This document shows, in pieces, positions 8,271-34,306 of a DNA stretch of 34,360 nucleotides. This DNA is from Mycobacterium sp. GTDB lineage: Bacteria; Actinomycetota; Actinomycetes; Mycobacteriales; Mycobacteriaceae. The translations under genes were made by a program, and so were the position numbers. Location of the stretch: NCBI GenBank assembly GCA_025965975.1, contig JAOPVX010000080.1, positions 1 to 34,360 on the forward strand, read 5' to 3'. Position 1 is the stretch's first letter. Every line of letters begins with the position of its first letter. The notes under the pieces were generated by a model. The model was not told the origin of the DNA. It made no database searches and saw only the letters and a program-made list of their open reading frames with translations.

Positions 8271-9689
8271 ATGCTGTGGGCAGATCGGGCAGCATCGTGG
8301 CGCCATGACATGGCGCACGTGTCGTTGATGCACGGCTGGGTTCCCACTGTTGTCCAGGTCGTCACCGCAGTGGTGCTGGTGCTGGCTGTGGGCTGGCGCA
8401 CCCGCCGATGGCGGCTGGTCGGGCTGCCGGTCATTGCCATTCTCGGCGCTGCGCTGGCAGCGGTGGTGCGCTGGTACATCGGCCGCGCAGGGTTGGCCGG
8501 TGACCCAGCGCCCGCCAGGCTGTGGATGTGGATAGCCCTGACCGGTTTGGCGGTTGGGACCGCAGTGGCGGGCTGGCGGGGATCGCGCTGGAGGCGGCGG
8601 GCTTTGTCGATATTGGCCGTGCCGTTGTCGGTGCTGTGCGCGGCGCTCTCGGTCAACCTGTGGGTGGGCTATCTGCCAACGATCGAATCCGCCTGGAATC
8701 AATTCAGCGCCGGCCCGCTGCCCGATCAAACCGACCGCGCCGCGGTCACCGCGATGCAACTGTCCGGTTCGGTGCGCGCCAAAGGCGCTGTCGTCGCGGT
8801 GAATATCAGTGCTGCGGCCTCGAAGTTCGCCCATCGTGGTGAGCTCGTGTATTTGCCGCCGGCCTGGTTCGCCACCAATCCAGCACCGCGGCTGCCGGCG
8901 GTGATGATGATTGGAGGCGAGTTCAACACACCGGCCGACTGGCTTCGAGCCGGAGACGCGATCACGGCCATCGACGCCTTCGCCGCCGCGCACGGCGGCA
9001 ACGCGCCGGTGTTCGTCTTCGTCGACTCCGGTGGCGGGTTCAACATCGACACTGAATGTGTCAACGGGGTCCGCGGCAACGCCGCCGACCATTTGACTAA
9101 AGATGTGATCCCTTTCCTGGCATCAAATTTCGGCGTCAGCTCACATGGGTCGGACTGGGGCGTCGCAGGCTTCTCCGCGGGCGGCACTTGCGCCATCGAC
9201 TTGACGGTGATGCATCCCGACCTGTTCGGCACCTTCCTTGACATCGCAGGGGACCTCAGCCCGAACTCGGGTAGCAAGGCACAGACCATCAACCGCCTAT
9301 TCGGCGGTAACTCCGCGGCATGGAGCGCGTTCGATCCGAGCACCGTGATCGACAGACACGGCCTGTATAACGGAGTCTCGGGTTCGTTCGTCGTCTCCGG
9401 GGGCCTTGTGGACCACCACGGAGCCGTCGCAGCCACCGCCAGCCCCGAGGACTCCGCCGCCAATACGCTCTGCGGATTGGGTACCGCGCGGGGTATCCAT
9501 TGCACCGTGGTCGCCGAACCGGGCAAACATGATTGGCCCTTCGCGGGCCGGGCCTTCGCCGCAGCGTTGCCATGGCTCGCGGGTCAAATCAATACACCTG
9601 GGGTGCCGCGCATTCCGCTGCCGCCACCAGCGGTGTCACCGCTGCAGTCCCCGTTGGCCAGCGCGCCGATCGCAAACCCGCACCACTGA
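8271..9689 (+). CDS. Membrane-anchored esterase, alpha/beta-hydrolase fold
   Basis: 472 residues. The N-terminal about 150 residues hold three to four transmembrane helices (VVQVVTAVVLVLAVGW, LVGLPVIAILGAALAAVV, LWMWIALTGLAVGTAVAGW, ALSILAVPLSVLCAAL). The C-terminal half is an esterase of the putative-esterase/antigen-85-like type with the nucleophile elbow GFSAGG (Ser302), an upstream VFVDSGGGFNID and a late GKHDWPFAGRAF that supplies the likely catalytic His. The domain is predicted outside the membrane and may act on lipid or acyl-sugar esters. Alternative start at ATG 8310. It converges with the deacetylase gene. Confidence 0.8.
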   Translation: MLWADRAASWRHDMAHVSLMHGWVPTVVQVVTAVVLVLAVGWRTRRWRLVGLPVIAILGAALAAVVRWYIGRAGLAGDPAPARLWMWIALTGLAVGTAVAGWRGSRWRRRALSILAVPLSVLCAALSVNLWVGYLPTIESAWNQFSAGPLPDQTDRAAVTAMQLSGSVRAKGAVVAVNISAAASKFAHRGELVYLPPAWFATNPAPRLPAVMMIGGEFNTPADWLRAGDAITAIDAFAAAHGGNAPVFVFVDSGGGFNIDTECVNGVRGNAADHLTKDVIPFLASNFGVSSHGSDWGVAGFSAGGTCAIDLTVMHPDLFGTFLDIAGDLSPNSGSKAQTINRLFGGNSAAWSAFDPSTVIDRHGLYNGVSGSFVVSGGLVDHHGAVAATASPEDSAANTLCGLGTARGIHCTVVAEPGKHDWPFAGRAFAAALPWLAGQINTPGVPRIPLPPPAVSPLQSPLASAPIANPHH

Positions 9690-11437: not shown

Positions 11438-14236
11438 ATGCTGACCATCGCCCGCCTGACCAAGTACAGCATCAAGTACTACAACGACACCGCCGACGCG
11501 CCCAAACAGGCTGCCATGGACCGGCAACAGGCCAACGGCGGGCTGGCCGAGTACTACTCGGAGGGCGAAACCCGTATCCCCACTTGGCTCGTCGTCGGCG
11601 ACAAACAGCTCATCAGTCACGCGACGGGCCTCACCGACGCCGAACTCGAGGGCGGCGATGCAAACACCGATGACGTCCGATTCTGGCTCGACGACGGCCA
11701 ATCCCCCAACGGCAAAGCCAGCCGCGAGTTCACCGACAACAGCGTGCACGGTTTCGACCTGACTTTCGCTGCGCCCAAAAGCGTTTCCCTGATCCGGGCC
11801 CTCACCGACGACATTGCCGAAAAAGTCCTCGCCACCGCCCACACCCGAGCCGTTGCGGCCGCGATGGTCTACCTCCACCAACACGCCGGCTACACCCGCG
11901 TGTACAACCGGGTCACCGGTAACAGAGACCTGCACCGCCTGCCCGGCCTGGTGGCGATCGCCTACCAGCACGAAACGTCGCGATGCGGCGACCCGCACCT
12001 GCACACCCACGTGATCGTGCCCAACCGGCAGCCCCGCCACGATGGCCAACTCGTCAGCATCGATTCGAAGTCGCTGCACCACGAGGCCAAAGCCGCAGGC
12101 ATCATCTACCAAGCGACCTTGCGACATGAGCTGCACGCCGAACGCGGCTTCGAGTGGAACCCGGTCGATCCGAACACCGGCATGGCCGAAATCGCCGGTG
12201 TCGCCAAGGACACGATCAAGGCGTGGTCGCAGCGCTCCACCCGCCTGCGCGAGTGGGCCAAAAACAATCTGGTGATCGTCGACGGCGAACCCACCGCCGC
12301 GCAGCTGGCCGCCGCACAGAAAGCCACCCGACCCGCCAAACCGGAGTCGCTGGCCTGGGCGCAACTCAAGGAACACTGGCGCACCGACGCGCGCGGCCTG
12401 ACCCTGGACCGCGACGCACACTTTCAAGCACGCGCGCAGCGGCGCAGCGCACACCGCGGCGCGGCCGATGCGGCGCGCATCGCGCAGATGGCCGCGCCCA
12501 TCGACAAACCCGCGTTCACGCGCGCCGACATGGTCGAGCTCGTCGGTGCGCAGCTGCCGGTCGACGCGCCCGGCGAACCGCGCACGCGCGTCGAGCAGAT
12601 CGTCGACGAGGTCAGCCTGCGCATCAGCGCACCGCGCCAAGCACACCACCGCGAGGGGCACGAGAAATTCACCATCGACGCGATCATCGCCGAGGAGCAA
12701 CGCGTCCTCGACATGGTCGACGACGCCGACAACCGCACGCGCCTCGATGTGCGCACACAAGATCTCGGCGACCTGTCGGCCGACCAGGCGCGCGCCATCC
12801 GCAACATCGCACTGTCCCCGTATCTGGTGCAGCCGCTGGCCGCGCCCGCGGGCGCGGGTAAGACGCACTCGCTCAAGGCGCTGCGCGCCGCCGCGCACCG
12901 GGCGCGCAAGCACGTGCTGGTGCTCGCGCCGACCGGTAAGGCGGTCGATGAGGCGATGGGTGAGGGTGCCGGCGACCGCGGCCTGACCGTCGCCAAAGCC
13001 CTGATGCTGATCGGCGACAACGCGCTGACCGTCGACTCCTCGACCGTGGTCATCGTCGACGAGGCCTCCATGCTCGGCACTCCGGAGCTCAAGAAGCTGC
13101 TGTCCTGCGCAATCCTGGGTCGGGCCAAGATGGTGCTCGTCGGGGACGCCTATCAGCTCTGCCCGGTCAAGGCGCGCGGGGGGATGTTCGAGCATCTTTG
13201 CGCCGACCTGCCGTGGAGCCAGCGCCTCGGCGAGGTGTGGCGGATGAAGGATCCCGAGGAACGCGACACCTCCCTGGCGCTAAGGGCCGCGCACGGCAAC
13301 CGGCTGCGCAGCGCGGTCAAGTGGTACCAAAACAAGGACCGCCTGCACGCGGGTGATCCGATCGCGATGGCCGCCGACGCGCTGCACGCCTACCTCACCG
13401 ACCGCGCCGCCAATAAGGACGCACTGTTGATCGGTGACACCTGGGAGATCGCCGACGCGCTGAACCGTCGCCTACACGACACCCTCACCCGACCCGGGCC
13501 AACCGTGACCGCCGCGCGTGATCAAAACATCCGCGTCGGCGACATCATCATGAGCCGAAGCAACGACGTCACCATCGACGTGCGCCCCGGCCCAGGGCAC
13601 CGGAACGACCCCGTCGATCAGGTCCGCAACGGCAACCGCTGGCGGGTCGCCGCGATCGACCCGGATACCAATCGCCTTGCCGCCGAACGACTCACCGACA
13701 AGGCCCGCGCCATCTTCGAGAAGGACTATCTCACCGAGCACGTCACGCTGGGCTACGCGGCGACGGTGCATTCGGCCCAAGGTGTTACCGCCGACAGCTG
13801 CTACGCGATTCTGGGTGAGGGGGCGTCGCGGGCGATGGCCTATGTGGCGATGACGCGCGGGCGGCACAACAACGAGGCGTTTCTGTACCAAAAGTTCGGT
13901 AATGAGGCCGACCACGAGCACGCCAAACCCGTCGCGGCCCCGGCTATCCACCAACTGCGGCGCGGCAATACGCATTCAGCCGCGTACTACTTTCGGCAGA
14001 TCCTGGGCAACGACGACCGGCCCCGCACGATGCACGCCGAGGCCGAACGCACCGAGCGTGCGTTGCTTCCCGAGGTGGTCGCCGAGGTGATTCAACGCCA
14101 CGAGCAACGCCGCCGCGCGCGCCGCACCGCGTGGCAGGCGCACGTGAAGGCGGCGCAGGCGTGGCGAACCGGTCACGAACGCATGGCAGCCACGGCCGCG
14201 AGCGTCGACCTCGACGCCGGCGGGCTCGAGCTCTGA
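11438..14236 (+). CDS. MobF relaxase-helicase (TraA/TrwC type)
   Basis: 932 residues. The relaxase domain comes first: N-terminal tyrosines at 10, 14 and 15 (LTKYSIKYYNDT), PKSVSLIRAL, and the three-His metal site HLHTH at 187-191. A RecD/TraI-like helicase follows: Walker A GAGKT (472-476, Lys475), Walker B VIVDEASM (Asp541-Glu542), GDAYQL, and the C-terminal UvrD-like motif LGYAATVHSAQGVT (771-784) then AMAYVAMTRGR. It nicks oriT, stays bound to the 5' end and unwinds DNA in conjugation or mobilisation. All key residues are kept, so it looks functional. No T4SS, coupling protein or integrase is seen nearby, which suggests a mobilisable or partly lost element. Confidence 0.92.
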   Translation: MLTIARLTKYSIKYYNDTADAPKQAAMDRQQANGGLAEYYSEGETRIPTWLVVGDKQLISHATGLTDAELEGGDANTDDVRFWLDDGQSPNGKASREFTDNSVHGFDLTFAAPKSVSLIRALTDDIAEKVLATAHTRAVAAAMVYLHQHAGYTRVYNRVTGNRDLHRLPGLVAIAYQHETSRCGDPHLHTHVIVPNRQPRHDGQLVSIDSKSLHHEAKAAGIIYQATLRHELHAERGFEWNPVDPNTGMAEIAGVAKDTIKAWSQRSTRLREWAKNNLVIVDGEPTAAQLAAAQKATRPAKPESLAWAQLKEHWRTDARGLTLDRDAHFQARAQRRSAHRGAADAARIAQMAAPIDKPAFTRADMVELVGAQLPVDAPGEPRTRVEQIVDEVSLRISAPRQAHHREGHEKFTIDAIIAEEQRVLDMVDDADNRTRLDVRTQDLGDLSADQARAIRNIALSPYLVQPLAAPAGAGKTHSLKALRAAAHRARKHVLVLAPTGKAVDEAMGEGAGDRGLTVAKALMLIGDNALTVDSSTVVIVDEASMLGTPELKKLLSCAILGRAKMVLVGDAYQLCPVKARGGMFEHLCADLPWSQRLGEVWRMKDPEERDTSLALRAAHGNRLRSAVKWYQNKDRLHAGDPIAMAADALHAYLTDRAANKDALLIGDTWEIADALNRRLHDTLTRPGPTVTAARDQNIRVGDIIMSRSNDVTIDVRPGPGHRNDPVDQVRNGNRWRVAAIDPDTNRLAAERLTDKARAIFEKDYLTEHVTLGYAATVHSAQGVTADSCYAILGEGASRAMAYVAMTRGRHNNEAFLYQKFGNEADHEHAKPVAAPAIHQLRRGNTHSAAYYFRQILGNDDRPRTMHAEAERTERALLPEVVAEVIQRHEQRRRARRTAWQAHVKAAQAWRTGHERMAATAASVDLDAGGLEL

Positions 14237-16619: not shown

Positions 16620-17008
16620 ACGGCGCAGCGGACAAGTCACCGGCTGCGATTGCACGCTGACGAGCTCAGGTCGAAATCGCCAACGCAGTTGAGCAGCCCG
16701 TAAAGCTGTGACTGGTCTCGGATTCGCCAGTGAGCACGGTTTCGGCGGTGCACGGATCAGCACCTTCATCGGAGAAGCGACACGATCGCCTCGTGAGCGC
16801 GCTCAAGCTGCCCGGTCCAGGCCAACGACCGGCGCGAACCGCCTCAGGCGGCGTCCGTGGATCGACACGCATCCCAGCAGTCCGAATACACCCGCCCCAC
16901 CGAACGTCTCCCTTGGTTACACGTCGTTTATTCCGTTGAAACACCAAGCGCGTCTACTACCAATGGACGAGGTTAATTACTGTGAAACTACTGGGAGAGG
17001 GCTGCGAC
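16620..17008. other. Upstream region of the permease gene
   Basis: Nearly 390 bases with no recognisable gene. GC falls towards 16900-17000. A TTGAAA at 16937-16942 could be a -35-like element, but no convincing -10 was found at the right distance. I looked for riboswitch-like structure and for GlnR-type paired AC boxes and saw none that I would defend. Confidence 0.35.
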
Positions 17009-18499
17009 ATGATGGCGACGACTGCGGAGCAGGACTCGGGCCTACACAGGGGCACCAACTGGTGGGGTGCCTTCGTGATCGGGCTCGCGGGTCCGATTCT
17101 GGTGACCGGGATCGCGCCCCCGGCCGTACAGGCACTCGGTGCTGGCGCGGTCCCGCTGATCGCCATCGCGACCGCGATGGGTGTGCTGCTGTGTCTGTTC
17201 GCCGCGGAACTCGCTGCGGTCATGCCGCACCGCACCGGCGGATTGCCGTCCTATACCACCGAGGCGTTCGAACCGATACACCGTGGCACCGCGACCCATC
17301 TGGGTGGAGTGTCCGCGTGGGCCTACTGGCTGGGCTGGTTTCCCGTCGCGCCCATCAACATGATCCTGGCCTCTGCTTACATCACCCAACTCTTTGGCAT
17401 CCCCGCGGGACGTGCGTTTCAGCCGTTCGGTGCGATCGGCAGTCCCGTGACGGTGTCGGTCCTGGTCATCTCGGTCATCGCGATCGTCGTCATGTACGTG
17501 CCCTCGTACTTCGGCATCAGGCTAGGGGCCGGATTCGCCACCGTCATGGGCATCGTTTCGATGGCGCCGCTGACCCTACTGATCCTGCTGCCGTTCTTCC
17601 GGCCCGGTTCGATGCACTTCAGCAACCTTGCCGGCTTCCATTTCCCGTCAGGGGTGGTCGGCAGCCCGACCCTGATCCTGGCCTGGATGTTCGTCATGAC
17701 GTGGTCCGTGCTGGCGATGGAAGCCGCCGCGTGCTACCTGGGTGAGTGCCGCAACCCGGCGCGGGACGCGAAGATCGCGATGACCGCCGAAGGCATCTAC
17801 GGATTCTTCATCTTCGTGATGACCGCGGTCGTGCTCGTTCTGGTCCTCGGCGTGGCCCAAAACGCCGACCCGCTGACGATCTTCTCCACGTTCATCACCA
17901 AGATCACCGGCTCCTCGGGCGGCTGGGTGCAGTGGGCGATCGGGCTGCCCCTCATCGTGGCGCTGCTGCTATCGGTGCTCAACGCGATCATGGGCTGCGC
18001 CCGCTCGCTGTATCAGACCGCCGAGGACGGGGTGTTGCCGCGCTGGTTCGGCCATCTGAACAAGCACGGGGTCCCCGACCGAGCAATGGCGTTCAACGTG
18101 GTGTGCTCGATCATCGTCCTGCTGTTCGGCAGCCCGCTTCGCATCTACATCATCTCCAACATCGGCTACCTGTTCGCCTGCATGATGGGGTTCTTCGCCT
18201 ACTTCGCGCACCGGCAGACCCGCCCGTCGATCGAGCGGCCATATCGTCTGCCCGGCTTCATGCGCTGGGTGGCACTGGCCGTCGGCCTGATTTGTGCGGT
18301 GCTGCTGATCTTCGGCGGGTGGAACAGCCCATCGGTCGTCGTCGGGACGTCGAGCCATGCGCTGTTCTTCGTCGGCCTGCTCGTCGTGGCGGCCTACGTT
18401 CCCCTGCACCTGTGGCGACGTGTCACCGACCGGCAAGCGCCCGGATCGCCCACACCAACGCTGGTGACCGATACCGCCGAGCCCGGGGTGGCGGTGTGA
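17009..18499 (+). CDS. APC-family amino acid/amine permease
   Basis: ATG at 17009 has GGAGAGG nine bases upstream and gives 496 residues; the GTG at 16982 would add nine. About twelve hydrophobic helices are visible. TM1 carries the APC substrate-binding signature (FVIGLAGPILVTGIAPPAVQ), and GWFPVAPINMILASAYI and AMEAAACYLGECRNPARDAK follow the family pattern. APC permeases import amino acids or polyamines with protons or by exchange. The genes downstream suggest an amine or amino acid that is later oxidised by the flavoenzyme. The next gene overlaps its stop by four bases (GTGA), so they are coupled. Confidence 0.85.
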   Translation: MMATTAEQDSGLHRGTNWWGAFVIGLAGPILVTGIAPPAVQALGAGAVPLIAIATAMGVLLCLFAAELAAVMPHRTGGLPSYTTEAFEPIHRGTATHLGGVSAWAYWLGWFPVAPINMILASAYITQLFGIPAGRAFQPFGAIGSPVTVSVLVISVIAIVVMYVPSYFGIRLGAGFATVMGIVSMAPLTLLILLPFFRPGSMHFSNLAGFHFPSGVVGSPTLILAWMFVMTWSVLAMEAAACYLGECRNPARDAKIAMTAEGIYGFFIFVMTAVVLVLVLGVAQNADPLTIFSTFITKITGSSGGWVQWAIGLPLIVALLLSVLNAIMGCARSLYQTAEDGVLPRWFGHLNKHGVPDRAMAFNVVCSIIVLLFGSPLRIYIISNIGYLFACMMGFFAYFAHRQTRPSIERPYRLPGFMRWVALAVGLICAVLLIFGGWNSPSVVVGTSSHALFFVGLLVVAAYVPLHLWRRVTDRQAPGSPTPTLVTDTAEPGVAV

Positions 18500-19005
18500 C
18501 GGCGCCGGCGCTCAAACTGTTCGGCCGGCGCCGCGGCGATCCGCCCCCGGACTCGCCACGCGACACCGTCGTGGTGCTGCGGCCGGATGAGGCCGGCTCA
18601 GAGGAGTTGCTCGCGGCCGCCCGAGCGACCGGCGGAACCATCACCGTGGTGCTGCCGCTGAAGCTGCACGGCTACGCGCTGGGCATGCCCAACCCCGGCC
18701 TGATGCCGACCGCGAAGGAACGCGCGACGGCCGAGGAGGCCATCACCACGACCGTCCGTCAGCTGCGGCGCGCGGGCGTCGATGTGGATGGTCAAATCGT
18801 GGTCACCCGCCACGCGCACCGCGCGATCGTCCGGATCGTCCGACGGCGCCGAGTCTCCCGGGTAGTGCTGGAAGAGGGCACCGCCGGGCGCCTGCGCCGT
18901 CTCGTCGAGGGCGACCTGCACCGCCAGCTGGTGCGCCGGCTCCGGCGCTCGGTCACCGTCACGACAGCGGCGCAGGCCGGCGGCCGGCAGGCCCGCCAGC
19001 CGTGA
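18496..19005 (+). CDS. USP-like small protein coupled to the permease
   Basis: 169 residues from GTG 18496, whose last bases overlap the permease stop. [20 protein letters not shown] and [20 protein letters not shown] resemble the first strand-helix of a universal-stress-protein fold; a region [20 protein letters not shown] follows. The C-terminus is very basic. The G-x2-G-x9-G-S/T nucleotide motif of classic USPs is not evident. USP-like partners of APC permeases are known, and a regulatory or nucleotide-sensing role is plausible. Assignment is by fold pattern and context only. Confidence 0.6.
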
Positions 19006-19021
19006 TATCGGTGGTGGGCCA

Positions 19022-19357
19022 ATGACCGTCGCCAAGTCCATCGCCCTGTTCGTCCTGGCCGCGGTCGCCGAGATCGGCGGCGCGTGGCTGGTCTGGCAGG
19101 GCGTCCGCGAACATCGGGGGCTCAAGTGGGTCGGCCTCGGCATCGTCGCCCTCGCCGTCTACGGGTTCGTCGCGACCCTGCAGCCCGACGCCCACTTCGG
19201 CCGGATCCTGGCGGCCTACGGCGGCGTGTTCGTCGCCGGTTCGCTGGCCTGGGGGATGGCGCTGGACGGCTTCCGCCCGGACCGCTGGGATCTGACCGGG
19301 GCGGCCATCTGCCTGGTCGGCGTCGGCCTGATCATGTACGCCCCACGGCAGGCGTGA
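19022..19357 (+). CDS. YnfA/UPF0060-family membrane protein
   Basis: 111 residues with four transmembrane helices. The family landmarks are [40 protein letters not shown] and [20 protein letters not shown], with [20 protein letters not shown] closing it. UPF0060 proteins resemble small multidrug resistance transporters but their substrates are unsettled. It sits 16 bases after the USP-like gene and is probably cotranscribed with the permease. Confidence 0.9.
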
Positions 19358-19399
19358 CCGTGGTGCGCGTGCTGCGGGGTGCAGACCCCTGCGCGTCAT

Positions 19400-19416
19400 G
19401 TCCACTGACAGTAGAC
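19400..19416 (+). promoter_or_regulatory. Palindromic operator candidate upstream of the XRE-cupin gene
   Basis: GTCCACTGACAGTAGAC is a 17-bp near-perfect palindrome: half sites GTCCACTG and CAGTAGAC differ from exact symmetry at one pair besides the central base. It ends seven bases before the -10 hexamer at 19424, so a bound protein would block the promoter. Autoregulation by the XRE-cupin protein encoded just downstream is the simplest explanation. Confidence 0.45.
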
Positions 19417-19423
19417 GCTACGG

Positions 19424-19436
19424 TAGGCTCGTCGGA
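19424..19436 (+). promoter_or_regulatory. Leaderless promoter of the XRE-cupin regulator
   Basis: TAGGCT at 19424-19429 lies six bases before the ATG at 19436, with no Shine-Dalgarno between, as at 2030. This indicates a leaderless transcript for the regulator gene, separate from the permease operon. Confidence 0.5.
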
Positions 19437-20095
19437 TGACCGACACCCAGCCGCGCGTTCACCGCGACACCGGGGACCCCGCGCCCGCCGAGCGCGAGGT
19501 CCCCTCGGGCACGCCCGCATTGCCGCCACTGGAGCTTGCGATCGCCGCCCAGGTCCGCGCCCTGCGTCGCGCCACCGGCCTGTCGGTCGCCGACATGGCG
19601 ACCCGGGCCGGCATCTCCAAGGCCATGTTCTCCAAGATCGAAAACGCCCAGACCTCCTGCAGTCTGTCCACTCTGGCGAAACTCGCGATGGCGCTCGACG
19701 TGCCGGTGACCGCGCTGTTCCGCGGCACCGACACCGCCCGCGAGGCCGTGTACACCGAGGCGGGGCACGCGTCGGTCATCGTCGGACGGGGCACTCGGGT
19801 CGGTCACCACTACGAACTCCTGGGTGCCCTGCGGGGCAGGCACAAACGACTCGAGCCGGTCCTGGTGACCCTGACCAACAAGAGCGAACCCTTCCCGCTC
19901 TTTCAGCACCCGGGCACCGAGCTGCTGTACATGCTCGAAGGCGTCATGATCTACGGGCACGGCGACAGCGAGTACACCATGCGCCCGGGCGACACGCTGC
20001 TGCTGGACGGCGAAGGCCTGCACGGCCCGCGCGACCTGGTCCGGCTGCCCATCCGATTCCTGGCGGCCACCGCATATCCCGACGCCCACGACTGA
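19436..20095 (+). CDS. XRE-family regulator with cupin sensor domain
   Basis: 219 residues. An HTH_3/XRE DNA-binding domain lies at about 36-97 (QVRALRRATGLSVADMATRA, GISKAMFSKIENAQTSCSLS). A cupin_2 domain follows at about 140-205, with the metal/ligand His-Glu-His pattern FQHPGTELLYMLEGVMIYGH (His158, Glu162) and GEGLHGP (His196). This is the build of PuuR-type regulators of amine and amino acid catabolism, where the cupin senses the substrate. It lies between the permease group and the oxidase/ligase operon, so it probably controls both. Confidence 0.9.
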   Translation: MTDTQPRVHRDTGDPAPAEREVPSGTPALPPLELAIAAQVRALRRATGLSVADMATRAGISKAMFSKIENAQTSCSLSTLAKLAMALDVPVTALFRGTDTAREAVYTEAGHASVIVGRGTRVGHHYELLGALRGRHKRLEPVLVTLTNKSEPFPLFQHPGTELLYMLEGVMIYGHGDSEYTMRPGDTLLLDGEGLHGPRDLVRLPIRFLAATAYPDAHD

Positions 20096-20240
20096 CCACC
20101 CCGCGCCGGGCGCTATCAATCACGCCGGCGCCCACCTTTGAAACGATGCCCCGCCGTAGGAAACCCCACGCAGAGCACTTTGCGGCCGTGCACAAGCCGC
20201 CCATGCTGGCTAATGACCAGTTCAGATACTATTTCTCCGC

Positions 20241-20250
20241 GACAATTGTC
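20241..20250 (+). promoter_or_regulatory. Perfect palindrome GACAATTGTC upstream of the oxidase operon
   Basis: GACAATTGTC is fully self-complementary over ten bases. It lies about 40-50 bases upstream of the probable transcription start set by the extended -10 near 20275, a normal distance for an activator site. It does not resemble the palindrome at 19400, so it may serve another protein. Confidence 0.35.
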
Positions 20251-20274
20251 AACCGGGCGGACGCGAGGCGTATC

Positions 20275-20283
20275 TGCTAGAGT
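20275..20283 (+). promoter_or_regulatory. Extended -10 promoter of the oxidase/ligase operon
   Basis: TGCTAGAGT contains the -10 hexamer TAGAGT (20278-20283) with an upstream TG, the extended -10 form. Transcription would start near 20290, leaving a leader of about 48 bases to the GTG at 20338. There is no convincing -35. A weak AAAGACG precedes the start codon. Confidence 0.4.
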
Positions 20284-20337
20284 TTCCTATCAACATACGA
20301 CGATTCTTCTAGTGAAACACAGAAAGACGGCGCAGAC

Positions 20338-21528
20338 GTGACCGAGACAGCTCGATACCTCGTGGTCGGCGGCGGCCTCGAGGGCCTCGCGATCGCCTGG
20401 TCGCTCGCCGACCGGGGCGAGACCGACATCCTGGTGGTCGAGCGCGACACCCTGTGCTCGGGCATGACCGGCAAGTCGAGTGCCGTCGTGCGCTGCCACT
20501 ACGGCACGACATCGCTCGCCGCGATGGCCTGGTACGGCATCGAGATGTTCGAGTGCGCCCCGCAATTGTTCGGCGACGACATGGGCTTTCGGCAATGCGG
20601 CTACGTGGTAGGTGTCGGCGACGCCGACGTCGACGCGTTGAAGGCCAACATCGCGATGCAACAGGAACTCGGCATCGACGTCGACTTCCTCGGAGACGAC
20701 GCGGCGGCCGACCTGTGGCCCGGCATCAACACCGACGACTTCGCCGCCTTCGCCTATGAGCCGCGCGGTGGTCGCGGCGAGGCCTACACCACCGGTATGG
20801 CCTTCGCCGCGGCCGCGCGCAGACTGGGCGTCCGCATCCGTCAGAGCACCCCGGTTGCCTCGCTGCTGGCACGCGCCGACGGATCCGTGTACGCGGTGCA
20901 ACTCGCCGACGGCTCCGAGATCCACGCCGACACCGTCATTTTGGCCACCGGACCGTGGGCGCCGGCGCTCGGCGCGACCGTCGGGGTCGACATCCCCGTC
21001 CGGGCGCAGCGCGCCCAGGTCGTCCTCGTCGATCAGGGCCGGCCGACCCCGACCGTGCCGGTGCTGTCCGATCTCGTTGGCCTGCAGTACATCTGCCGCG
21101 AACCCAATGCCGAGCTGCTGGTCGGCAACAGCGACCACTCGGCCCCGGAATTCGTCGACCCCGACGACTACCCCAACCGTGCCGACGTCTCGTCCATCGA
21201 AAGGGTGATCACCAAGCTAACCCATCGGCTACCCCAGATGCCCGATCCACGGATCACCACCACCTACGGCGGTTGCTACGACGTGACACCCGACTACAAC
21301 CCGATCATCGGGCCCGCCCCCGTGGACGGGCTCTTCCTCGCGACCGGATTCAGCGGGCACGGCTTCAAGATCTCACCGGCGGTCGGCAGACTGGTCGCCG
21401 ACCTGCTCACCGACGGCACCACCGACCTGCCCGGCGTCACGGCCGGGGACTTCCGCTACGCCCGCTTCGCCGAGGGCGACCTGCTCCGCAGTCGACACCC
21501 CTACATCGGCGCGGGGACCATGCGATGA
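20338..21528 (+). CDS. FAD-dependent amine/amino-acid oxidase (DAO, SoxB-like)
   Basis: 396 residues. The N-terminus has the FAD-binding motif YLVVGGGLEGLAIAWSLADR and then VVERDTLCSGMTGKSSAVVR CHYG in two pieces; the C-terminal FAD site is PIIGPAPVDGLFLATGFSGH. This is the DAO family (sarcosine oxidase beta, PuuB, DadA), which oxidises C-N bonds of secondary or primary amines. No folate-binding domain and no alpha, gamma or delta subunit genes are near, so it is a single-subunit enzyme. It is the first gene of the operon that continues into the GS-like ligase. The likely substrate is an N-alkyl or gamma-glutamyl amine, by context. Confidence 0.85.
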   Translation: MTETARYLVVGGGLEGLAIAWSLADRGETDILVVERDTLCSGMTGKSSAVVRCHYGTTSLAAMAWYGIEMFECAPQLFGDDMGFRQCGYVVGVGDADVDALKANIAMQQELGIDVDFLGDDAAADLWPGINTDDFAAFAYEPRGGRGEAYTTGMAFAAAARRLGVRIRQSTPVASLLARADGSVYAVQLADGSEIHADTVILATGPWAPALGATVGVDIPVRAQRAQVVLVDQGRPTPTVPVLSDLVGLQYICREPNAELLVGNSDHSAPEFVDPDDYPNRADVSSIERVITKLTHRLPQMPDPRITTTYGGCYDVTPDYNPIIGPAPVDGLFLATGFSGHGFKISPAVGRLVADLLTDGTTDLPGVTAGDFRYARFAEGDLLRSRHPYIGAGTMR

Positions 21529-21592
21529 CCACCGTCCCGCGGTCACCGACCCGAATCCCGTTGATCCGCAACCACCTTTCCAGGAGTACACC

Positions 21593-22945
21593 ATGACTGT
21601 CGACACCGCCGAACCCGCACCGGCGCACAACGATTCGGTTCAGTCCGCAAGCCTGGCCGAGCGCGCCCACGCTTCGGACACCACGTTCATCCTCGCGCTG
21701 TTCGTCACGCTGACCGGTAAACCGTGCGCCAAACTGGTGCCGGTCGAGGCAGTCGAGATGCTCGAAAACGACGGTGTCGGCTTCGCCGGGTATGCCGCAG
21801 GCGGCATGGGTCAGGTGCCCAAGGACCCCGACCTGATCGCCATCCCCGATCCCAGCTCGTTCACCCCCATCCCTTTCGTGCAACCCGGGCTGGCCATCGT
21901 GCACTGCGATCCGCACGTCGACGGCGAGCCGTGGCCGTACGCGCCGCGGCTCATCCTCAAGGAAACCCTGCGCAGGGCGGCCGATCTGGGGCTGAGCGTC
22001 GACATCGGCGCCGAAATCGAGTACTTCCTCGTCACCCGTGCCGACGACGGGACCCTCACCACCGCCGACCCGTCGGATCTCAGCGCCCAGCCCTGCTACG
22101 ACGCCCGTGACGTCACCCGGATGTATGACCACCTGACCGAGATCTCGCGAGCCATGAACACCCTGGGCTGGGGGAACTACGCCAACGACCACGAAGACGG
22201 CAACGGCCAGTTCGAGCAGAACTTCGAATACTCCGACGCGCTGACCACCGCCGACCGCGTCGTCACCGCGCGGTATCTGCTCTCCGTCCTGGCCGAACGG
22301 CGAGGCATGCGGGCCACGTTCATGCCCAAGCCGTTCGACAACCGCACCGGGACTGGCATGCACATGCACCTGTCGCTGCGTGATGACTCCGGCCCGATCT
22401 TCCCCGACGCCACCGACGACAAGGGCCTGGGACTGTCCACCCGCGCCTATGGCTTCATCGCAGGCGTCCTCGACCACGCGTGCGCCCTTCAGGCGGTGAT
22501 CGCGCCGACCGTCAACTCCTACAAACGCACCGGCGCTAGCTCCACCAGCAGCGGCGCCACCTGGGCGCCGAACGCGGTCACCTACGGTGGCAACGATCGG
22601 ACGAATTACCTGCGGGTGCCCGACCACAACCGGGTCGAGCTGCGCGGCGCCGACGGCTCGGCCAACCCCTACCTCGCGGCCGCGGCCACCGTCGCCGCCG
22701 GTCTGGACGGCATCGCCCGTCAACTCGATCCAGGCTCGCCCGGCACCAAGACCGGTAAGGCCCTGCCGATGACGCTGCTGCACGCCATCGACGCGTTCGA
22801 GACCGACGCCGTCGTCACCGCCGCGCTCGACGGGGTCGGCGCCGGCGTCGCCGCGTACTTCGCGCAGCTCAAACGCGACGAGTTCTTCGACTGGCACAAC
22901 ACGGTCTCCGCTTGGGAGATCGACCGCTATCTCACCGCATTCTGA
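21593..22945 (+). CDS. glnT: Type III glutamine synthetase-like ligase (GlnT/GmaS)
   Basis: 450 residues with good GS active-site motifs: GAEIEYFLV (Glu141, Glu143), DGNGQFEQNF (about 202-211), MPKPFDNRTGTGMHMHLSL (244-262) and APTVNSYKRTGAS. Then come TSSGATWAPN-type and NRTNYLRVPDHNRVELR segments. The 'NSYKR...SGATWAPN' pattern is that of TIGR03105/GlnT and of GmaS, gamma-glutamylmethylamide synthetase. It lacks the NLYxLP adenylylation site of ordinary GlnA. It should join glutamate to ammonia or an amine using ATP. The GlxBCD neighbours support the GmaS-like role. The ribosome binding site is CAGGAG before ATG 21593. Confidence 0.85.
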   Translation: MTVDTAEPAPAHNDSVQSASLAERAHASDTTFILALFVTLTGKPCAKLVPVEAVEMLENDGVGFAGYAAGGMGQVPKDPDLIAIPDPSSFTPIPFVQPGLAIVHCDPHVDGEPWPYAPRLILKETLRRAADLGLSVDIGAEIEYFLVTRADDGTLTTADPSDLSAQPCYDARDVTRMYDHLTEISRAMNTLGWGNYANDHEDGNGQFEQNFEYSDALTTADRVVTARYLLSVLAERRGMRATFMPKPFDNRTGTGMHMHLSLRDDSGPIFPDATDDKGLGLSTRAYGFIAGVLDHACALQAVIAPTVNSYKRTGASSTSSGATWAPNAVTYGGNDRTNYLRVPDHNRVELRGADGSANPYLAAAATVAAGLDGIARQLDPGSPGTKTGKALPMTLLHAIDAFETDAVVTAALDGVGAGVAAYFAQLKRDEFFDWHNTVSAWEIDRYLTAF

Positions 22946-22962
22946 TCAGGAGGACGCCACTC

Positions 22963-23859
22963 ATGTGCGGCATCGTCGGACTGCATCTGCGCCAGCGGGC
23001 GCTCTACCCCCGGCTCGGGGAGATGCTCACCACCATGCTCGGCGCGATGGCCGACCGCGGGCCGGACGCAGCGGGGATGGCGATCTACGGCGATCCCACC
23101 TGGTCACCCGATGGGCACGCCACTGTCACCCTGCTCGACAGCCCGTGCCCGGCAACAGAACTCGCGGACACGTTGAGCGTGGCACTCGGTGTGCCCGTCA
23201 CAGGGATCGACCAGCCACCGACCACGCTGCTGCACGCGCCGGTGCACTACGACGCCCTCACCGACGCTGCCCGCAGCGCGGCGCCGGGCGCGCGTCTCAT
23301 TGGTTTTGGCTCCGATGTGACCGTCCTCAAGGGTGTCGGTGACCCCCGCGCGCTGGCCGCCGCCTTCGGCGTGCCGAACGCGGCGGGCTGGCAGGGCGTC
23401 GGACACACCCGGATGGCGACCGAATCCGCGGTCACCGCCGAGGGGTCGCACCCGTTCTCGGTTGGGCCCGACCAGTGCCTGGTGCATAACGGCTCGTTCT
23501 CAAACCACATGACGATCCGGCACCAGTTGGAGCGCGAGGGCGTCGTCTTCGACAGCGAGAACGACACCGAGGTGGGCGCGCGCTTCGTCGCCAAGCAGCT
23601 GGCCGAGGGCGCCGGGCTGGAGAAGGCGCTGCTGAGGCTCAACGAGACCTTCGACGGCTTCTACACTCTGCTGGTATCCACGTCCGATTCGTTCGCGGTG
23701 GTCCGCGACGCCATCGGTTGCAAGCCTGCGATCATCGCCGAGACCAGCCAGTGGGTAGCCATGGCCTCGGAATACCGTGCGCTGGCTCATCTTCCGGGGA
23801 TCGGCGGCGCCCGGATGTTCGAACCCGAGCCCGAAGAGGTGTACGTATGGCACCGGTAG
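22963..23859 (+). CDS. glxB: Class II glutamine amidotransferase (GlxB/MgsA-like)
   Basis: 298 residues from ATG 22963, preceded by CAGGAGGA. The second residue is Cys (MCGIVGLHLRQR), the Ntn-type nucleophile after Met removal. The class II fold follows: GHTRMATESAVTAEGSHPFS, LVHNGSFSNHMTIR and a late DAIGCKPAI. It corresponds to the amidotransferase part of glutamate synthase as a separate subunit (GlxB in rhizobia, MgsA in methylotrophs), which strips the amide or amine nitrogen from glutamine or a gamma-glutamyl compound. It overlaps the next gene by 13 bases. Confidence 0.85.
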   Translation: MCGIVGLHLRQRALYPRLGEMLTTMLGAMADRGPDAAGMAIYGDPTWSPDGHATVTLLDSPCPATELADTLSVALGVPVTGIDQPPTTLLHAPVHYDALTDAARSAAPGARLIGFGSDVTVLKGVGDPRALAAAFGVPNAAGWQGVGHTRMATESAVTAEGSHPFSVGPDQCLVHNGSFSNHMTIRHQLEREGVVFDSENDTEVGARFVAKQLAEGAGLEKALLRLNETFDGFYTLLVSTSDSFAVVRDAIGCKPAIIAETSQWVAMASEYRALAHLPGIGGARMFEPEPEEVYVWHR

Positions 23860-24545
23860 CCACCCGCCCAGCCGTCACGGTCGACCTCGACGCGACCACC
23901 ACGCGCGCGGTGAATCAGCTGCTGGCCTCGCCCGATGCGCCCAAGGGGCTGAGGATCACCAACCCACGGGGCGCCCACGCCCTTGCCTGCGGTCTGGACG
24001 CCGACCTCGAGGTCACCATCGACGGCGACGTCGGTTACTACTGCGCGGGCATGAACCAGCACGCCACCGTCACCGTGGCAGGCAACGCCGGCGTGGGCCT
24101 CGCCGAGAACATGATGTCGGGCACTGTCTGGGTCACCGGCAACGCCTCTCAGTCGGCGGGCGCAACGGCCCACGGTGGGCTGCTGGTCATCGAAGGCAAT
24201 GCCGCCGCCCGCTGCGGCATCTCGATGAAGGGCGTCGACATCGTCGTCGGCGGTGACATCGGACATATGAGCGCCTTCATGGGCCAGGCCGGGCGTCTAC
24301 TCGTCTGCGGCAATGCCGGTGAAGCGCTGGGTGATTCACTCTACGAGGCTCGCATCTACGTCAGGGGTACGGTGGCCTCCCTGGGTGCCGACTGCGTCGA
24401 GAAGCCGATGCGCGCCGAGCACCTCGCCGAGGTGCAGGAGCTGCTCGACGCGGCAGGCATGACCGCCGCCCCGACGGAGTTCACCCGCTACGGCTCGGCC
24501 CGCACCCTCTACAACTTCCACGTCGACAACGCCGGCGCGTACTGA
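23847..24545 (+). CDS. glxC: GXGXG-domain glutamate synthase subunit (GlxC/MgsB-like)
   Basis: 232 residues from ATG 23847, which is inside the end of glxB. The right-handed beta-helix repeats of the GltB C-terminal/FwdC type are clear: VTIDGDVGYYCAGMN, VTVAGNAGVGLAENM, VWVTGNASQSAGATAHGG, LVIEGNAAARCGISMKG, IVVGGDIGHMSAFMG and LVCGNAGEALGDSLYEA. It is a structural subunit that tethers the amidotransferase and the FMN subunit. Translation is coupled to both neighbours. Confidence 0.85.
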   Translation: MAPVATRPAVTVDLDATTTRAVNQLLASPDAPKGLRITNPRGAHALACGLDADLEVTIDGDVGYYCAGMNQHATVTVAGNAGVGLAENMMSGTVWVTGNASQSAGATAHGGLLVIEGNAAARCGISMKGVDIVVGGDIGHMSAFMGQAGRLLVCGNAGEALGDSLYEARIYVRGTVASLGADCVEKPMRAEHLAEVQELLDAAGMTAAPTEFTRYGSARTLYNFHVDNAGAY

Positions 24546-24568
24546 CCGGGCACCCGAGGAGAACAACC

Positions 24569-25888
24569 GTGACCAGCACCGCACCAGGTCTGCGCGAATC
24601 AGCCACCTTCGACCGCAACGTCATCCATGAGATCCAGCGCGCCGCCGAGACCGGCATCTACGACATCCGCGGCTGGGGCGCCAAGCGCGCACTGCCCCAC
24701 TTCGACGACCTGCTGTTCCTCGGAGCGTCCATGTCACGCTATCCCCTTGAGGGCTACCGCGAACGCTGCGGCACCGACGTGGTACTCGGCGACCGGCATG
24801 CGCAGTTCCCGTTGCACCTCGACATCCCCGTCACCATCGCCGGGATGAGCTTCGGAGCGCTGTCCGCACCGGCCAAGGAGGCCCTCGGCCGTGCAGCCAG
24901 CGAAGTCGGCACCTCCACCACCACGGGCGACGGCGGCATGACGCCCGAAGAGCGCGGCCAATCCAAGAATCTGGTGTACCAATACCTTCCGTCGCGCTAC
25001 GGGATGAACCCGGACGACCTGCGCAAGGCCGACGCCATCGAGATCGTGCTCGGCCAGGGCGCCAAACCCGGCGGGGGCGGCATGCTGCTCGGGCAGAAGA
25101 TCGACGAACGCGTCGCAGCGATGCGCACCCTGCCCGAAGGGGTGGACCAGCGCAGCGCCTGCCGCCATCCCGACTGGACCGGGCCGGACGATCTCGCCAT
25201 CAAGATCGTCGAGCTACGCGAGATCACTAACTGGGAAAAACCCATCTACATCAAGGTCGGTGCCACCCGGACCTATTACGACGTCCAACTCGCCGTGAAG
25301 TGCGGTGCCGACGTGGTCGTCGTCGACGGCATGCAGGGCGGCACCGCCGCGACGCAGGACGTGTTCATCGAACACGTCGGCATTCCCACCCTCGCCGCGA
25401 TTCCGCAAGCGGTACAGGCACTGCAGGAACTCGGCATGCATCACAACGTGCAGCTGATCGTGTCCGGCGGCATCCGCACCGGCGCCGACGTCGCCAAGGC
25501 GATGGCGCTCGGGGCGGACGCCGTTGCCATCGGCACTGCCGCCCTCATCGCGCTCGGCGACAACCATCCCCGCTACGCCGCGCAGTACCGCGAACTCGGG
25601 TCAGAGGCAGGCTTCTACGATGACTTCCAAGCCGGGCGCGATCCCGCCGGTATCACCACTCAGGACCCGATGTTGGCGCAGCGGCTCGACCCGGTTGAGG
25701 GGGCGCGGCGTGTCGCGAACTATCTTCGGGTGCTCACCATGGAGGCCCAGACTCTCGCCAGGGCGTGCGGAAAGTCGCATCTGCGCAACCTCGAACCCGA
25801 AGACCTCGTGGCCCTTACCGTCGAGTCCGCCGCCATGGCTCGAGTCCCGCTGGCAGGGACCAACTGGATCCCCGGCGCGACAACGTAG
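24569..25888 (+). CDS. glxD: FMN-binding glutamate synthase subunit (GlxD/MgsC-like)
   Basis: 439 residues from GTG 24569 (GAGGAGA upstream). It is the FMN/TIM-barrel part of glutamate synthase: ITIAGMSFGALSAPAKEALG in near form, GTSTTTGDGGMTPEERGQSK, GQGAKPGGGGMLLGQKI, GGTAATQDVFIEHVG and LIVSGGIRTGADVAKAMALG. The C-terminal region reads GRDPAGITTQDPMLAQRL where GltB-type enzymes carry the Cys ligands of a 3Fe-4S cluster. Only four Cys are present in the protein and none cluster, so this subunit has no Fe-S centre. It should combine the transferred nitrogen with 2-oxoglutarate to form glutamate or an N-alkylglutamate. Confidence 0.85.
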   Translation: MTSTAPGLRESATFDRNVIHEIQRAAETGIYDIRGWGAKRALPHFDDLLFLGASMSRYPLEGYRERCGTDVVLGDRHAQFPLHLDIPVTIAGMSFGALSAPAKEALGRAASEVGTSTTTGDGGMTPEERGQSKNLVYQYLPSRYGMNPDDLRKADAIEIVLGQGAKPGGGGMLLGQKIDERVAAMRTLPEGVDQRSACRHPDWTGPDDLAIKIVELREITNWEKPIYIKVGATRTYYDVQLAVKCGADVVVVDGMQGGTAATQDVFIEHVGIPTLAAIPQAVQALQELGMHHNVQLIVSGGIRTGADVAKAMALGADAVAIGTAALIALGDNHPRYAAQYRELGSEAGFYDDFQAGRDPAGITTQDPMLAQRLDPVEGARRVANYLRVLTMEAQTLARACGKSHLRNLEPEDLVALTVESAAMARVPLAGTNWIPGATT

Positions 25889-30047: not shown

Positions 30048-32116
<2,069 letters not shown>

Positions 32117-32120
<4 letters not shown>

Positions 32121-32785
32121 TGCGCGCCAAGCTGGTAGCCGGTGCCATGCACGGTGTGGACGATGCCCCGTCCGAGCTTGCGGCGCAGGTAGTGCACGTA
32201 GGTGTCGATGGCTCCCGACGAATCGACGCCGTCGAATACCGCATCGAGCAGCTGACCGCGGGTGAAGACCCGACGTGGGGCGCTCATCAGAACGCCGAGC
32301 AGCGCCGCCTCACGCTCGGACAATTCGACACCGACACCGAAACCGCCGACGGTGCTGCCACTTACGGTGCGCGTCACCCGATCCAGACGGAGCCCGCCGA
32401 CGCGCAACGTCGAGCGGCCGTCGGGTCGGCGCAGCAATGCCCGCACCCGGGCTAGCAGTTCTGGTATCTCGAACGGTTTGACCAAATAGTCCTGCGCGCC
32501 GGCGTCGAGGCCCTCGACCCGATCCGCGACCGAACCCCGCGCGGTTAGCAGCAGCGCAGGCGTGACGATACCGCGGGATCGGAGCACGGCGACCAGTTCG
32601 GACCCGTCCATCACCGGCAATCCGCGATCGACGATCATGGCGTCGTAGCTGCCGGTGAGGCCGCGGTGCAGGCCTTGCTGGCCGTCGTACGCGACGTCGA
32701 CGAAATAGCCCTCGTCGGTGAGGAGCTCGGTGAGCAATGCGACGAGTGCACGGTCGTCCTCGACGATCAGCAATCGCTCGCTCAC
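32117..32785 (-). CDS. OmpR-family response regulator
   Basis: 222 residues from GTG 32785. The receiver has the acidic pocket EDD (Glu9-Asp11), phosphoacceptor Asp53 in MIVDRGLPVMDG, Thr81 and Lys103 (DYLVKPFE). The winged-helix output domain follows (LSEREAALLGVLMSAPRRVF, and IDTYVHYLRRKLGRGIVHTV with HGTGYQLG). It is first in the pair with the kinase and lies 61 bases from the divergent start at 32847, which makes control of that operon likely. Confidence 0.92.
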
Positions 32786-32846
32786 CCACCGAGCGTGCCA
32801 CGCCACTTCTTCGAGGACGCTAAGAAACCGGTGGCACCTTCGGGAC

Positions 32847-33359
32847 ATGGACTCACCTCGTCTGGGTTTCCGTCGCGCGACGGTCACCTCGTGGGCGCTG
32901 GTGGGTATCGGCATCGCCGGCGTCGCAGGCGCCTCGGCCCTTGCCTACGCGGATACCGTCAAGCCGGCGGTCGCGGACGTCCCGGCCGATGCCACGGTTC
33001 CCGAACCGGAGGTGTTGACTCCGTCCCCCGCCGAGAACCTTCCACCGGCACCGGACGTCGTGACGACGGCCGAGGGCCCACCGCCACCGCCCATCTCGGC
33101 AACGACCGCGCCACGCGCACCGGAAGACACACCGCAGACGACCGGTGAACAACCCCCGGTCACGACCTACACCCCGGTGCCTGAATACACGCCCCAGTAC
33201 ACGCCCGAACCAACTGTCGAGCAGGCCCCGCCCGTCACCCATCAAGCACCGGCAACCCAGGCCCAAGCTCCCCCGACAACCAAGGAGCGCAATCTCACCC
33301 CGACGACGGTGATGGCGCCGAACTACTCCCCACACGTGACGATTTCGCGCGGCTCGTGA
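32847..33359 (+). CDS. Exported Pro/Thr-rich protein of the ApbE operon
   Basis: 170 residues. A membrane anchor or signal (TVTSWALVGIGIAGVAGASA, about residues 12-31) is followed by an entirely low-complexity Pro/Thr/Glu/Ala mature part (YTPVPEYTPQYTPEPTVEQA), with no Cys. It has no FMN-binding domain and no S/T-x-GA-T flavinylation motif, although it lies where an FMN-binding acceptor is usual in such operons. It may be a wall-spanning linker or scaffold. The stop overlaps the ApbE start (GTGA). Confidence 0.75.
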   Translation: MDSPRLGFRRATVTSWALVGIGIAGVAGASALAYADTVKPAVADVPADATVPEPEVLTPSPAENLPPAPDVVTTAEGPPPPPISATTAPRAPEDTPQTTGEQPPVTTYTPVPEYTPQYTPEPTVEQAPPVTHQAPATQAQAPPTTKERNLTPTTVMAPNYSPHVTISRGS

Positions 33360-34306
33360 CTGTCGCCCCCGAGCAACTCACTGACTCCGGCGCGGACACT
33401 GCGACAACGCAGTGGCAGCGTTGGAGCACCACCATGCAGATCGTCGTCACCGATCCCGATTCGCTGGCCGCCGCCCGCCGGGAGGTCGACGCCGAACTCG
33501 ACACCGTCGACGCTGCCGCATCGCGATTTCGGCCCGATTCGGAGATCAACGCGCTCGCAGCGTCAGCCGGACGGCCGACTCGGGTAAGTGAGCTACTGGC
33601 GGACCTGCTCGAGGCCGCGCTCACGGCAGCCCGCCAGACCGACGGCGATGTCGATCCGACGATCGGCGCGGCAATGATCGCCCTTGGATATGACCGCGAC
33701 ATCACCACGCTCGGACACACTCACCGAGTGAGCGCGTCGATGAGCATTCCGGCGAGGTGGTCCATGATCACCCTCGAGGATCGCGTCGTGACCGCGCCGC
33801 CCGGCATTCTGCTCGACCTCGGAGCGACAGCCAAGGCGATCGCCGCGGACCGTTGCGCCCACCGCGCCTACCACGCCACCGGTAGCGGCGTGCTCATCAA
33901 CCTGGGTGGTGACATCGCCACCGCGGGACCGGCGCCCGACGGTGGCTGGCAGGTACTGGTCCACGATGACGCCGACGATCCGGCGGGTTCGGTGGCGCTT
34001 CCATCAGAGGCCGCGTTGGCCACGTCGAGCACGATTCGCCGTCGGTGGCGATGCGATGGGAACGTCGTCCACCACATCCTCGACCCGCGGACGGGGTGGT
34101 CTGCAGATCCGGTGTGGCGCACGGTAAGTGTCGCCGCCCAAACCTGCCTGGCCGCCAACACGGTCAGCACAGCTGCGATCATCCGCGGATGGCGGGCACT
34201 GGATTGGATTCGCGCACTTGGTATTCCCGCGCGACTGGTGGACAGCGAGCGCAACGTCCACACCGTCTGTGGGTGGCCTGCCGAAGGCACAGGAGCGCGG
34301 CAGTGA
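33356..34306 (+). CDS. ApbE-type FAD:protein FMN transferase
   Basis: 316 residues from GTG 33356. The family marks are MQIVVTDPDSLAAARREVDA, ASRFRPDSEINALAAS, ARQTDGDVDPTIGAAMIALG, LLDLGATAKAIAADRCAHRA, GVLINLGGDIATAGPAPDGG and VVHHILDPRTG. ApbE attaches FMN to Thr/Ser of exported or membrane proteins. Usually it has a lipoprotein or Tat signal; none is visible here, so it may act in the cytoplasm or be exported by other means. It is coupled to both neighbours by four-base overlaps. Confidence 0.88.
   Translation: MTVAPEQLTDSGADTATTQWQRWSTTMQIVVTDPDSLAAARREVDAELDTVDAAASRFRPDSEINALAASAGRPTRVSELLADLLEAALTAARQTDGDVDPTIGAAMIALGYDRDITTLGHTHRVSASMSIPARWSMITLEDRVVTAPPGILLDLGATAKAIAADRCAHRAYHATGSGVLINLGGDIATAGPAPDGGWQVLVHDDADDPAGSVALPSEAALATSSTIRRRWRCDGNVVHHILDPRTGWSADPVWRTVSVAAQTCLAANTVSTAAIIRGWRALDWIRALGIPARLVDSERNVHTVCGWPAEGTGARQ

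Follow-up and report, generated by a model that had tools for sequence, protein, structure and literature searches.

A mycobacterial gene island for predicted methylamine use in which a single FAD enzyme may take the place of N-methylglutamate dehydrogenase

Genes of the island and their families

The window analyzed here is a stretch of 34,360 nucleotides from Mycobacterium sp. (GenBank assembly GCA_025965975.1, contig JAOPVX010000080.1), which is contig C446 of a 7.4-Mb genome in 449 contigs, and our subject is an island of nine genes on its forward strand. An initial annotation had proposed that these genes import a small amine, transfer a glutamyl group to it and oxidize the product as a nitrogen source, and that they mix Puu-type parts with parts of the N-methylglutamate (NMG) pathway. 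All nine open reading frames were confirmed on one strand, at or adjoining the positions first given, and the families assigned to them were recovered, that of the USP-like protein by a weak match. The core consists of genes for a single-subunit flavin adenine dinucleotide (FAD) enzyme of the DAO family (positions 20338 to 21528, 220 bits to DAO), a putative GmaS-type ligase (21593 to 22945), GlxB, GlxC and GlxD, and it is preceded by a gene for an XRE-cupin transcription regulator (19436 to 20095, HTH_31 plus Cupin_2).

The oxidase has 396 amino acids, with no further domain and no folate domain seen, in agreement with the initial description of a GmaS/Mgs-like set accompanied by a lone oxidase. 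It falls below the cut-offs of the established family models, with 102 bits against 480 for monomeric sarcosine oxidase (MSOX; TIGR01377) and 140 against 529 for SoxB (TIGR01373). The carboxyl-binding residues of the Sox family, R52, Y55 and K348 (PMC12582975; papers given by PMC number are cited from excerpts), are retained as R52/Y55/K344 in 90 of 90 aligned DAO rows, whereas PuuB has E and T in place of R52 and K348, and a Puu-type origin of the oxidase is therefore not upheld. In the DAO tree, PuuB and a Streptomyces MSOX-type row stand on very long branches, and their placements were not used. The island lacks the four subunits of MgdABCD, and no Sox- or Mgd-type alpha, gamma or delta gene was seen in it, as had been stated, but the statement does not extend to the genome, in which a SoxBDAG-type set lies on contig C444, with a SoxD match. 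A second DAO copy, 53% identical, occurs in Rhodococcus/Prescottella (loci L131, L137 and L139), where it adjoins an M20 peptidase gene and has no GlxBCD alongside.

The ligase passes TIGR03105 (type III glutamine synthetase [GS]) with 606 bits against a cut-off of 470 and reaches 223 bits against the gamma-glutamylputrescine synthetase model, whose cut-off is 650, which removes it as well from the supposed Puu-type parts. In a phmmer search of the PDB, its best solved relatives were 7cql (375 bits), listed as a type III glutamate-ammonia ligase, and 9qur (351 bits), a glutamate-methylamine ligase; the next matches were called glutamine synthetases and scored 196 bits or less. We take 7cql to be RhGmaS, as its numbering of residues agrees with that in the RhGmaS paper. 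Of ten RhGmaS positions with described roles (K30', A48', Y147, Q175, D177, E179, E186, N188, W300 and R312; PMC7948447), nine are kept in the window ligase, the exception being Q175, which is Ala (197). The catalytic residues D177, E186 and R312 are present as D199, E208 and R336, the ammonium Asp of GS (Asp50', Ala48' in RhGmaS) is A65, and the Glu-flap residue of GS is replaced by Trp (W300 in RhGmaS), here W324. The methylamine pocket is thus incomplete at Q175, a residue that is not catalytic; this position is Ala in all aligned actinobacterial cluster ligases, including that of an Mgd-type cluster (genome G193), whereas the Aminobacter and Acinetobacter ligases have Gln. Two GlnA-type enzymes encoded in the window's genome retain the ammonium Asp, and the ligase lies outside their branch (support of 92/91 at the fork, under the tool's star), so that the grouping with ordinary GS named beforehand as a possible refutation was not seen. 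By family and residues, the protein is predicted to be a GmaS-type ligase, that is, a gamma-glutamylmethylamide synthetase. Two paralogues in this genome (L004 and L005, on contigs C31 and C424) join the same broad branch (92/91), differ from the window ligase at three pocket positions (Thr/Ser/Asp) and are perhaps other amine ligases.

The three synthase genes encode, in order, the parts that characterize MgsABC: a class II glutamine amidotransferase (GATase; GlxB/MgsA, 22963 to 23859), whose start at ATG 22963 gives MCGIVG with Cys at position 2; a GXGXG-domain protein (GlxC/MgsB, 23847 to 24545, start ATG 23847); and a flavin mononucleotide-type, glutamate synthase-like protein (GlxD/MgsC, 24569 to 25888, Glu_synthase, 312 bits). 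They are 46, 61 and 75% identical to the proteins of Aminobacter sp. NyZ550, whose cluster is reported to be induced when the strain grows on metformin (PMC11446756).

The front end of the island consists of genes for an APC permease (17010 to 18499, start ATG 17010; PF13520, 157 bits), a USP-like protein (18496 to 19005; PF00582, 21.5 bits, E 3.8e-4, below the 24-bit cut-off), whose start overlaps the permease stop, and a YnfA/UPF0060 membrane protein (19022 to 19357, 149 bits). The best NCBIfam model for the permease was that of the trimethylamine N-oxide permease (NF053774), and membership was rejected at 178 bits, far under the cut-off of 690. Permease homologues 58% identical adjoin MgdABC-GlxBCD clusters (G193 and G729), another with a USP neighbor (85%) accompanies a GS-GlxBCD-DAO cluster (L044), and USP adjoins APC in L044, L153 and L212. 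Since APC and USP accompany both DAO and MgdABC clusters, the window permease is a recurring partner of such clusters.

As to the wider contig, a MobF/TrwC relaxase gene (11438 to 14236, with about 75% identity at the DNA level to plasmids of mycobacteria) lies 2.8 kb ahead of the island, and the contig may thus belong to a plasmid or an integrative element. Genes for a two-component system and an ApbE-family protein lie at the right end (30897 to 32914 and 33356 to 34306), and a haem-binding MHB protein is a mycobacterial mark of the genome.

Oxidase and synthase genes across genomes

In a sample of 198 genomes of the genus, the window genome included, DAO (at least 50% identity) was found in 83 (87 copies) and GlxD (at least 72% identity) in 85 (88 copies). 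All 83 DAO genomes also carry GlxD, and DAO lies within 6 kb of GlxD in 85 of the 88 copies, in 84 of them on the same strand (Fisher p of about 2e-54 for the association, a statistic that, like the other linkage figures, ignores shared descent). Three GlxD copies have no DAO nearby, and G041 and G193 are the two genomes that have GlxD alone. The contig of G041 stops just beyond the XRE gene, the two genes of G063 are on separate contigs, and G193 lacks DAO and has the order APC-USP-MgdC-MgdB-MgdA-XRE-GlxD-GlxC-GlxB with a divergent GS gene; MgdD was not detected at this MgdABC-like locus. Among named genomes, represented by the best 80 of 298 DAO relatives (Rhodococcus, Nocardia, Gordonia, Williamsia, Mycobacterium/Mycolicibacterium, Corynebacterium, Amycolatopsis, Streptomyces and others), GS, GlxB, GlxC and GlxD together accompany DAO in 64 loci. 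Because DAO is near 85 of 88 GlxD copies and the full core is present in 64 of 80 loci, the order of the island is far beyond chance. These figures also qualify the novelty first claimed for the full combination: the DAO-GlxD core is found in 83 of the 198 genomes and is not peculiar to the window, and what is uncommon is the APC-USP-YnfA front end (among the 80 named loci, USP in 2, APC in 1 and YnfA in 1, namely L062).

The place of the oxidase is not always taken by the same protein. Among the 296 genomes of a class-wide draw, 33 have GlxD (E of at most 1e-150), and 27 of these are outside the genus. In 20 of the 27 the cluster was inspected: seven clusters contained window-type DAO and seven an MSOX-type oxidase, two contained MgdABC, and four had no recognized oxidase; two kinds together occurred in none of the 20. 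MSOX-type here means 45 to 57% identity to the Streptomyces NBC_01320 plasmid oxidase, which is itself nearest to MSOX and N-methyltryptophan oxidase. The usual site of the oxidase gene is between GlxD and XRE, in some clusters together with HutD or M20, and MgdABC lies beyond XRE in L212 and L211. This alternation of three N-methyl amino acid oxidase types in one cluster is our strongest argument for the predicted reaction.

The genes around the oxidase bear on the substrate. In the 80 named loci the recurrent neighbors, counted as tblastn matches of which some are weak, were XRE-cupin (61), M20 peptidase (50), ammonium transporter (Amt; 48), DmmC-like (29), HODM (28), EutQ (22), HutD (21) and DmmA (18), the Dmm names being based on Pfam; the M20 peptidase and HutD-family genes recur near the oxidase across L062 to L141. 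HODM and the full core occur together in 24 of the 80 loci, and in the genus GlxD is present in 50 of 58 HODM genomes. DmmABC converts dimethylamine to methylamine (PMC5520151). In L048 and L160 the gene directly past the oxidase encodes S-(hydroxymethyl)mycothiol dehydrogenase, a formaldehyde dehydrogenase (TIGR03451, about 666 bits, cut-off 513), and in L052 and L055 it encodes a protein 71% identical to this one; the four loci are three of the genus and one Streptomyces plasmid. The presence of dimethylamine-monooxygenase-type genes, Amt and a mycothiol formaldehyde dehydrogenase nearby suggests that the substrate is monomethylamine, which narrows the small amine of the initial proposal.

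Gene order was compared in 20 loci of the genus: the window order XRE-DAO-GS-GlxBCD was found in 4 and the order Amt-GS-GlxBCD-DAO-XRE in 7, one of these (L047) beside a leuA-type gene, and the remaining loci vary. In three Corynebacterium loci (L119, L120 and L121), DAO lies near M20 peptidase, Dmm-type and Amt genes in genomes without a GlxD match. A gene for an OCD-family protein (NF004848, 582 bits) near DAO in L121, with a similar open reading frame in L119, possibly marks a different route to an N-methyl amino acid.

The regulator and a 37-bp operator-like element

The XRE-cupin regulator, a homologue of which occurs in 61 of the 80 named loci as given above, is 44% identical to the XRE regulator of the Acinetobacter gmaS-mgs cluster and 20% identical to PuuR, and so it too falls outside the Puu-type parts. 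A 37-bp operator-like element, GTTTCCT-N23-GTGAAAC, lies on the forward strand at positions 20282 to 20318 and ends 19 bp before the oxidase start; two weaker copies (16906-16942 and 16952-16988) lie upstream of the APC permease gene. The pattern GTTTCAT-N23-ATGAAAC with at most 2 mismatches gave 43 sites in 81 sequences (1.45 Mb), 38 of which held at least one, compared with 0 in three Markov controls and 0 to 2 at eight other spacings. The element was first sighted by eye in 13 sequences that are included among the 81, so that this count is not independent of its discovery; the spacing controls, the Markov controls and the left-out window serve as the checks. Outside the window there are 42 sites: 40 are found at most 450 bp ahead of a DAO or GS gene, in many cases with a divergent EutQ, Amt or M20 gene on the opposite side, and one is inside a gene match.

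A position weight matrix (PWM) built from the 42 sites of other genomes, with the window omitted, ranked 20282-20318 first in the window (35.8), followed by 16906 (20.2) and 16952 (12.7), whereas the maximum in 200 Markov windows was 13.3 and a score of 12 was reached by 1 of the 200. Sites scoring at least 15 were present in 62 of the 80 named loci, from which the matrix sites were drawn, and in 18 of the 20 genus loci. With a loosened pattern fitted to the window site, the sole exact match in the 7.4-Mb genome was that site, two others having 3 mismatches, and an exact scan of 172 loci with the fitted pattern matched 10 of them. A 14-mer search upstream of DAO gave little (8 of 39 sequences, compared with 5 in one shuffle). 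The element seemed possible in Acinetobacter against a GC-rich background and was rejected there when composition-matched shuffles did as well in 94 of 200; there was likewise no sign of it in Aminobacter, where 38 of 200 shuffles did equally well, or in G193, where 127 of 200 did. One crude scan of the window for GlnR boxes (TNAC-N6-GNAAC), a weak test, gave matches at 8746, 15985 and 21286 and none in the island promoters. We propose that the XRE-cupin protein reads the 37-bp element.

Predicted pathway, alternatives and known systems

We conclude that the island probably encodes an NMG pathway for the use of monomethylamine, mainly as a nitrogen source, in which a single FAD enzyme replaces NMG dehydrogenase. 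The gene families, the catalytic residues, the conserved order, the replacement of the oxidase and the conserved element are read directly from the sequences; the reactions, the substrate, the electron acceptor and the binding of the element by the regulator are predicted from them. The APC permease would bring in the amine or a methylated precursor, and the GmaS-type ligase, with ATP, would place methylamine onto the gamma-carboxyl of glutamate. GlxB-GlxC-GlxD, as MgsABC, would then convert gamma-glutamylmethylamide to N-methylglutamate, from which the single-subunit FAD enzyme would release glutamate and formaldehyde in place of the four-subunit, folate-linked MgdABCD, the whole being regulated by the XRE-cupin protein through its presumed 37-bp operator. 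With rather less assurance, we favor the broader view that nitrogen scavenging by a folate-free NMG pathway with a new single-subunit NMG oxidase is widespread among mycobacteria, rhodococci, nocardiae and some other actinobacteria, that the pathway's last enzyme is a replaceable part of which there are three N-methyl amino acid oxidase kinds, and that the 37-bp operator joins dimethylamine monooxygenase and transporter genes to it.

Several observations weigh against the proposed pathway. HODM has no match in the window genome, and it is a broad N-demethylase family, so that dimethylamine itself is inferred; formaldehyde dehydrogenase is directly beside the oxidase in only the four loci named above. 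Among the 20 clusters of other genera, four (L193, L194, L200 and L202) have no recognized oxidase nearby, and in L207 the MSOX-type gene precedes that of the ligase instead of following GlxD. A PWM site scoring 15 is missing from 18 of the 80 named loci and from 2 of the 20 genus loci. A phylum-wide draw of 296 genomes gave DAO (E 1e-60) in only four, three of which belong to the window genus. M. smegmatis, moreover, did not grow with methylamine as nitrogen source, and its growth on ethanolamine was GlnR dependent (PMC4222082); the study found no growth on urea either, although the species is urease positive. The results with methylamine and ethanolamine raise the possibility that the chemistry is the same but the substrate is ethanolamine or some other small primary amine, from which an N-alkylglutamate would be formed and then split by the oxidase to yield an aldehyde, and the change of Q175 to Ala in the actinobacterial cluster ligases could admit a larger amine. 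We consider this unlikely, given the HODM/Dmm-type, Amt and formaldehyde dehydrogenase neighbors, the lack of any aldehyde dehydrogenase among the ten recurrent neighbor families scanned, and the substitution of MSOX-type and MgdABC enzymes for the oxidase.

Equally improbable in our judgment is that the oxidase is a general oxidase of N-methyl amino acids, such as sarcosine, which is a mere neighbor of the synthase genes, NMG being oxidized by SoxBDAG elsewhere. The SoxBDAG-type set on contig C444 could indeed share or perform the last step, and distant MgdA-D were assigned that step in Mycobacterium sp. 141 and 155 (McTaggart 2015, PMC5023230). Moreover, 5 of 12 genomes with core-lacking loci (Amycolatopsis jejuensis, Rhodococcus sp. 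G-MC3 and three Corynebacterium) have DAO without a GlxD match anywhere in the genome (E 1e-50), their best full-length GS matches being 38 to 39% identical, which indicates that the oxidase can work outside the NMG pathway. Against a mere neighbor stand the 64 of 85 GlxD genomes of the genus that have no SoxD match and all carry DAO, and the absence of DAO without GlxD (0 of 83) in the same sample. That the set is an ordinary ammonia-assimilating GS and glutamate synthase system, as the names glnT and glutamate synthase in annotations and the GlnR-dependent expression in nitrogen starvation (PMC4222082) would have it, is hardly credible for a ligase that has neither the ammonium Asp nor the Glu-flap residue and lies outside the branch of the two Asp-keeping GlnA-type enzymes, and for a cluster with an oxidase built into it.

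The NMG pathway and GmaS and Mgs are already known. For a single-subunit enzyme at the last step we found no published precedent; a search for a single-subunit or monomeric NMG oxidase, which left most subscription journals outside its range, gave none among the matches listed. Our reading of the island as a methylamine pathway assigns a testable function to a gene set that often goes under the names glutamine synthetase type III and glutamate synthase, of which GlxD is carried by 85 of 198 genomes of the genus, and which includes a GlnR-dependent gene run of M. smegmatis. If it is true, the oxidase would be a new enzyme type for NMG oxidation, a screen based on mgdABCD would miss methylamine users, and the cluster would clearly exemplify how one enzyme is exchanged for another while the step of the pathway stays the same.

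Among known systems, puuPADRCBE of E. coli resembles the island in general layout, with a permease, an XRE-cupin regulator, a GS-like ligase and a DAO oxidase, but the island has no partner of PuuC, PuuD or PuuE. M. smegmatis, compared by published tags and gene names, has in msmeg_6259-6264 consecutive tags whose names match the order Amt-GS-GlxB-GlxC-GlxD-DAO, with expression under nitrogen starvation 11.7, 16.1, 10.4, 7.4, 7.0 and 5.1 times higher in the wild type than in the glnR mutant (PMC4222082); unlike in our reading, the excerpt names them only as ammonium transporter, glutamine synthetase type III (glnT), amidotransferase (GATase), FwdC-FmdC protein, glutamate synthase and putative oxidoreductase. 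Methylamine use through Gma-MgsABC has been proposed in Mycobacterium sp. 141 and 155 (PMC5023230), where, by description and not by DNA, the ligase and synthase genes bear the same names and the proposed pathway is the same, but where the excerpt assigns the last step to distant MgdA-D and does not mention an adjacent single-subunit oxidase. On a plasmid of Acinetobacter sp. ANC 7454, an XRE regulator and an ammonium transporter stand beside gmaS-mgsABC. The island is like the methylotroph NMG pathway (mgsABC-gmaS-mgdABCD, e.g., Aminobacter sp. NyZ550 pMET1) in its GmaS-type ligase and GlxB/C/D, and differs from the Aminobacter cluster in that one 396-amino-acid FAD protein without a folate domain stands in place of MgdABCD and in its additional APC permease and 37-bp element.

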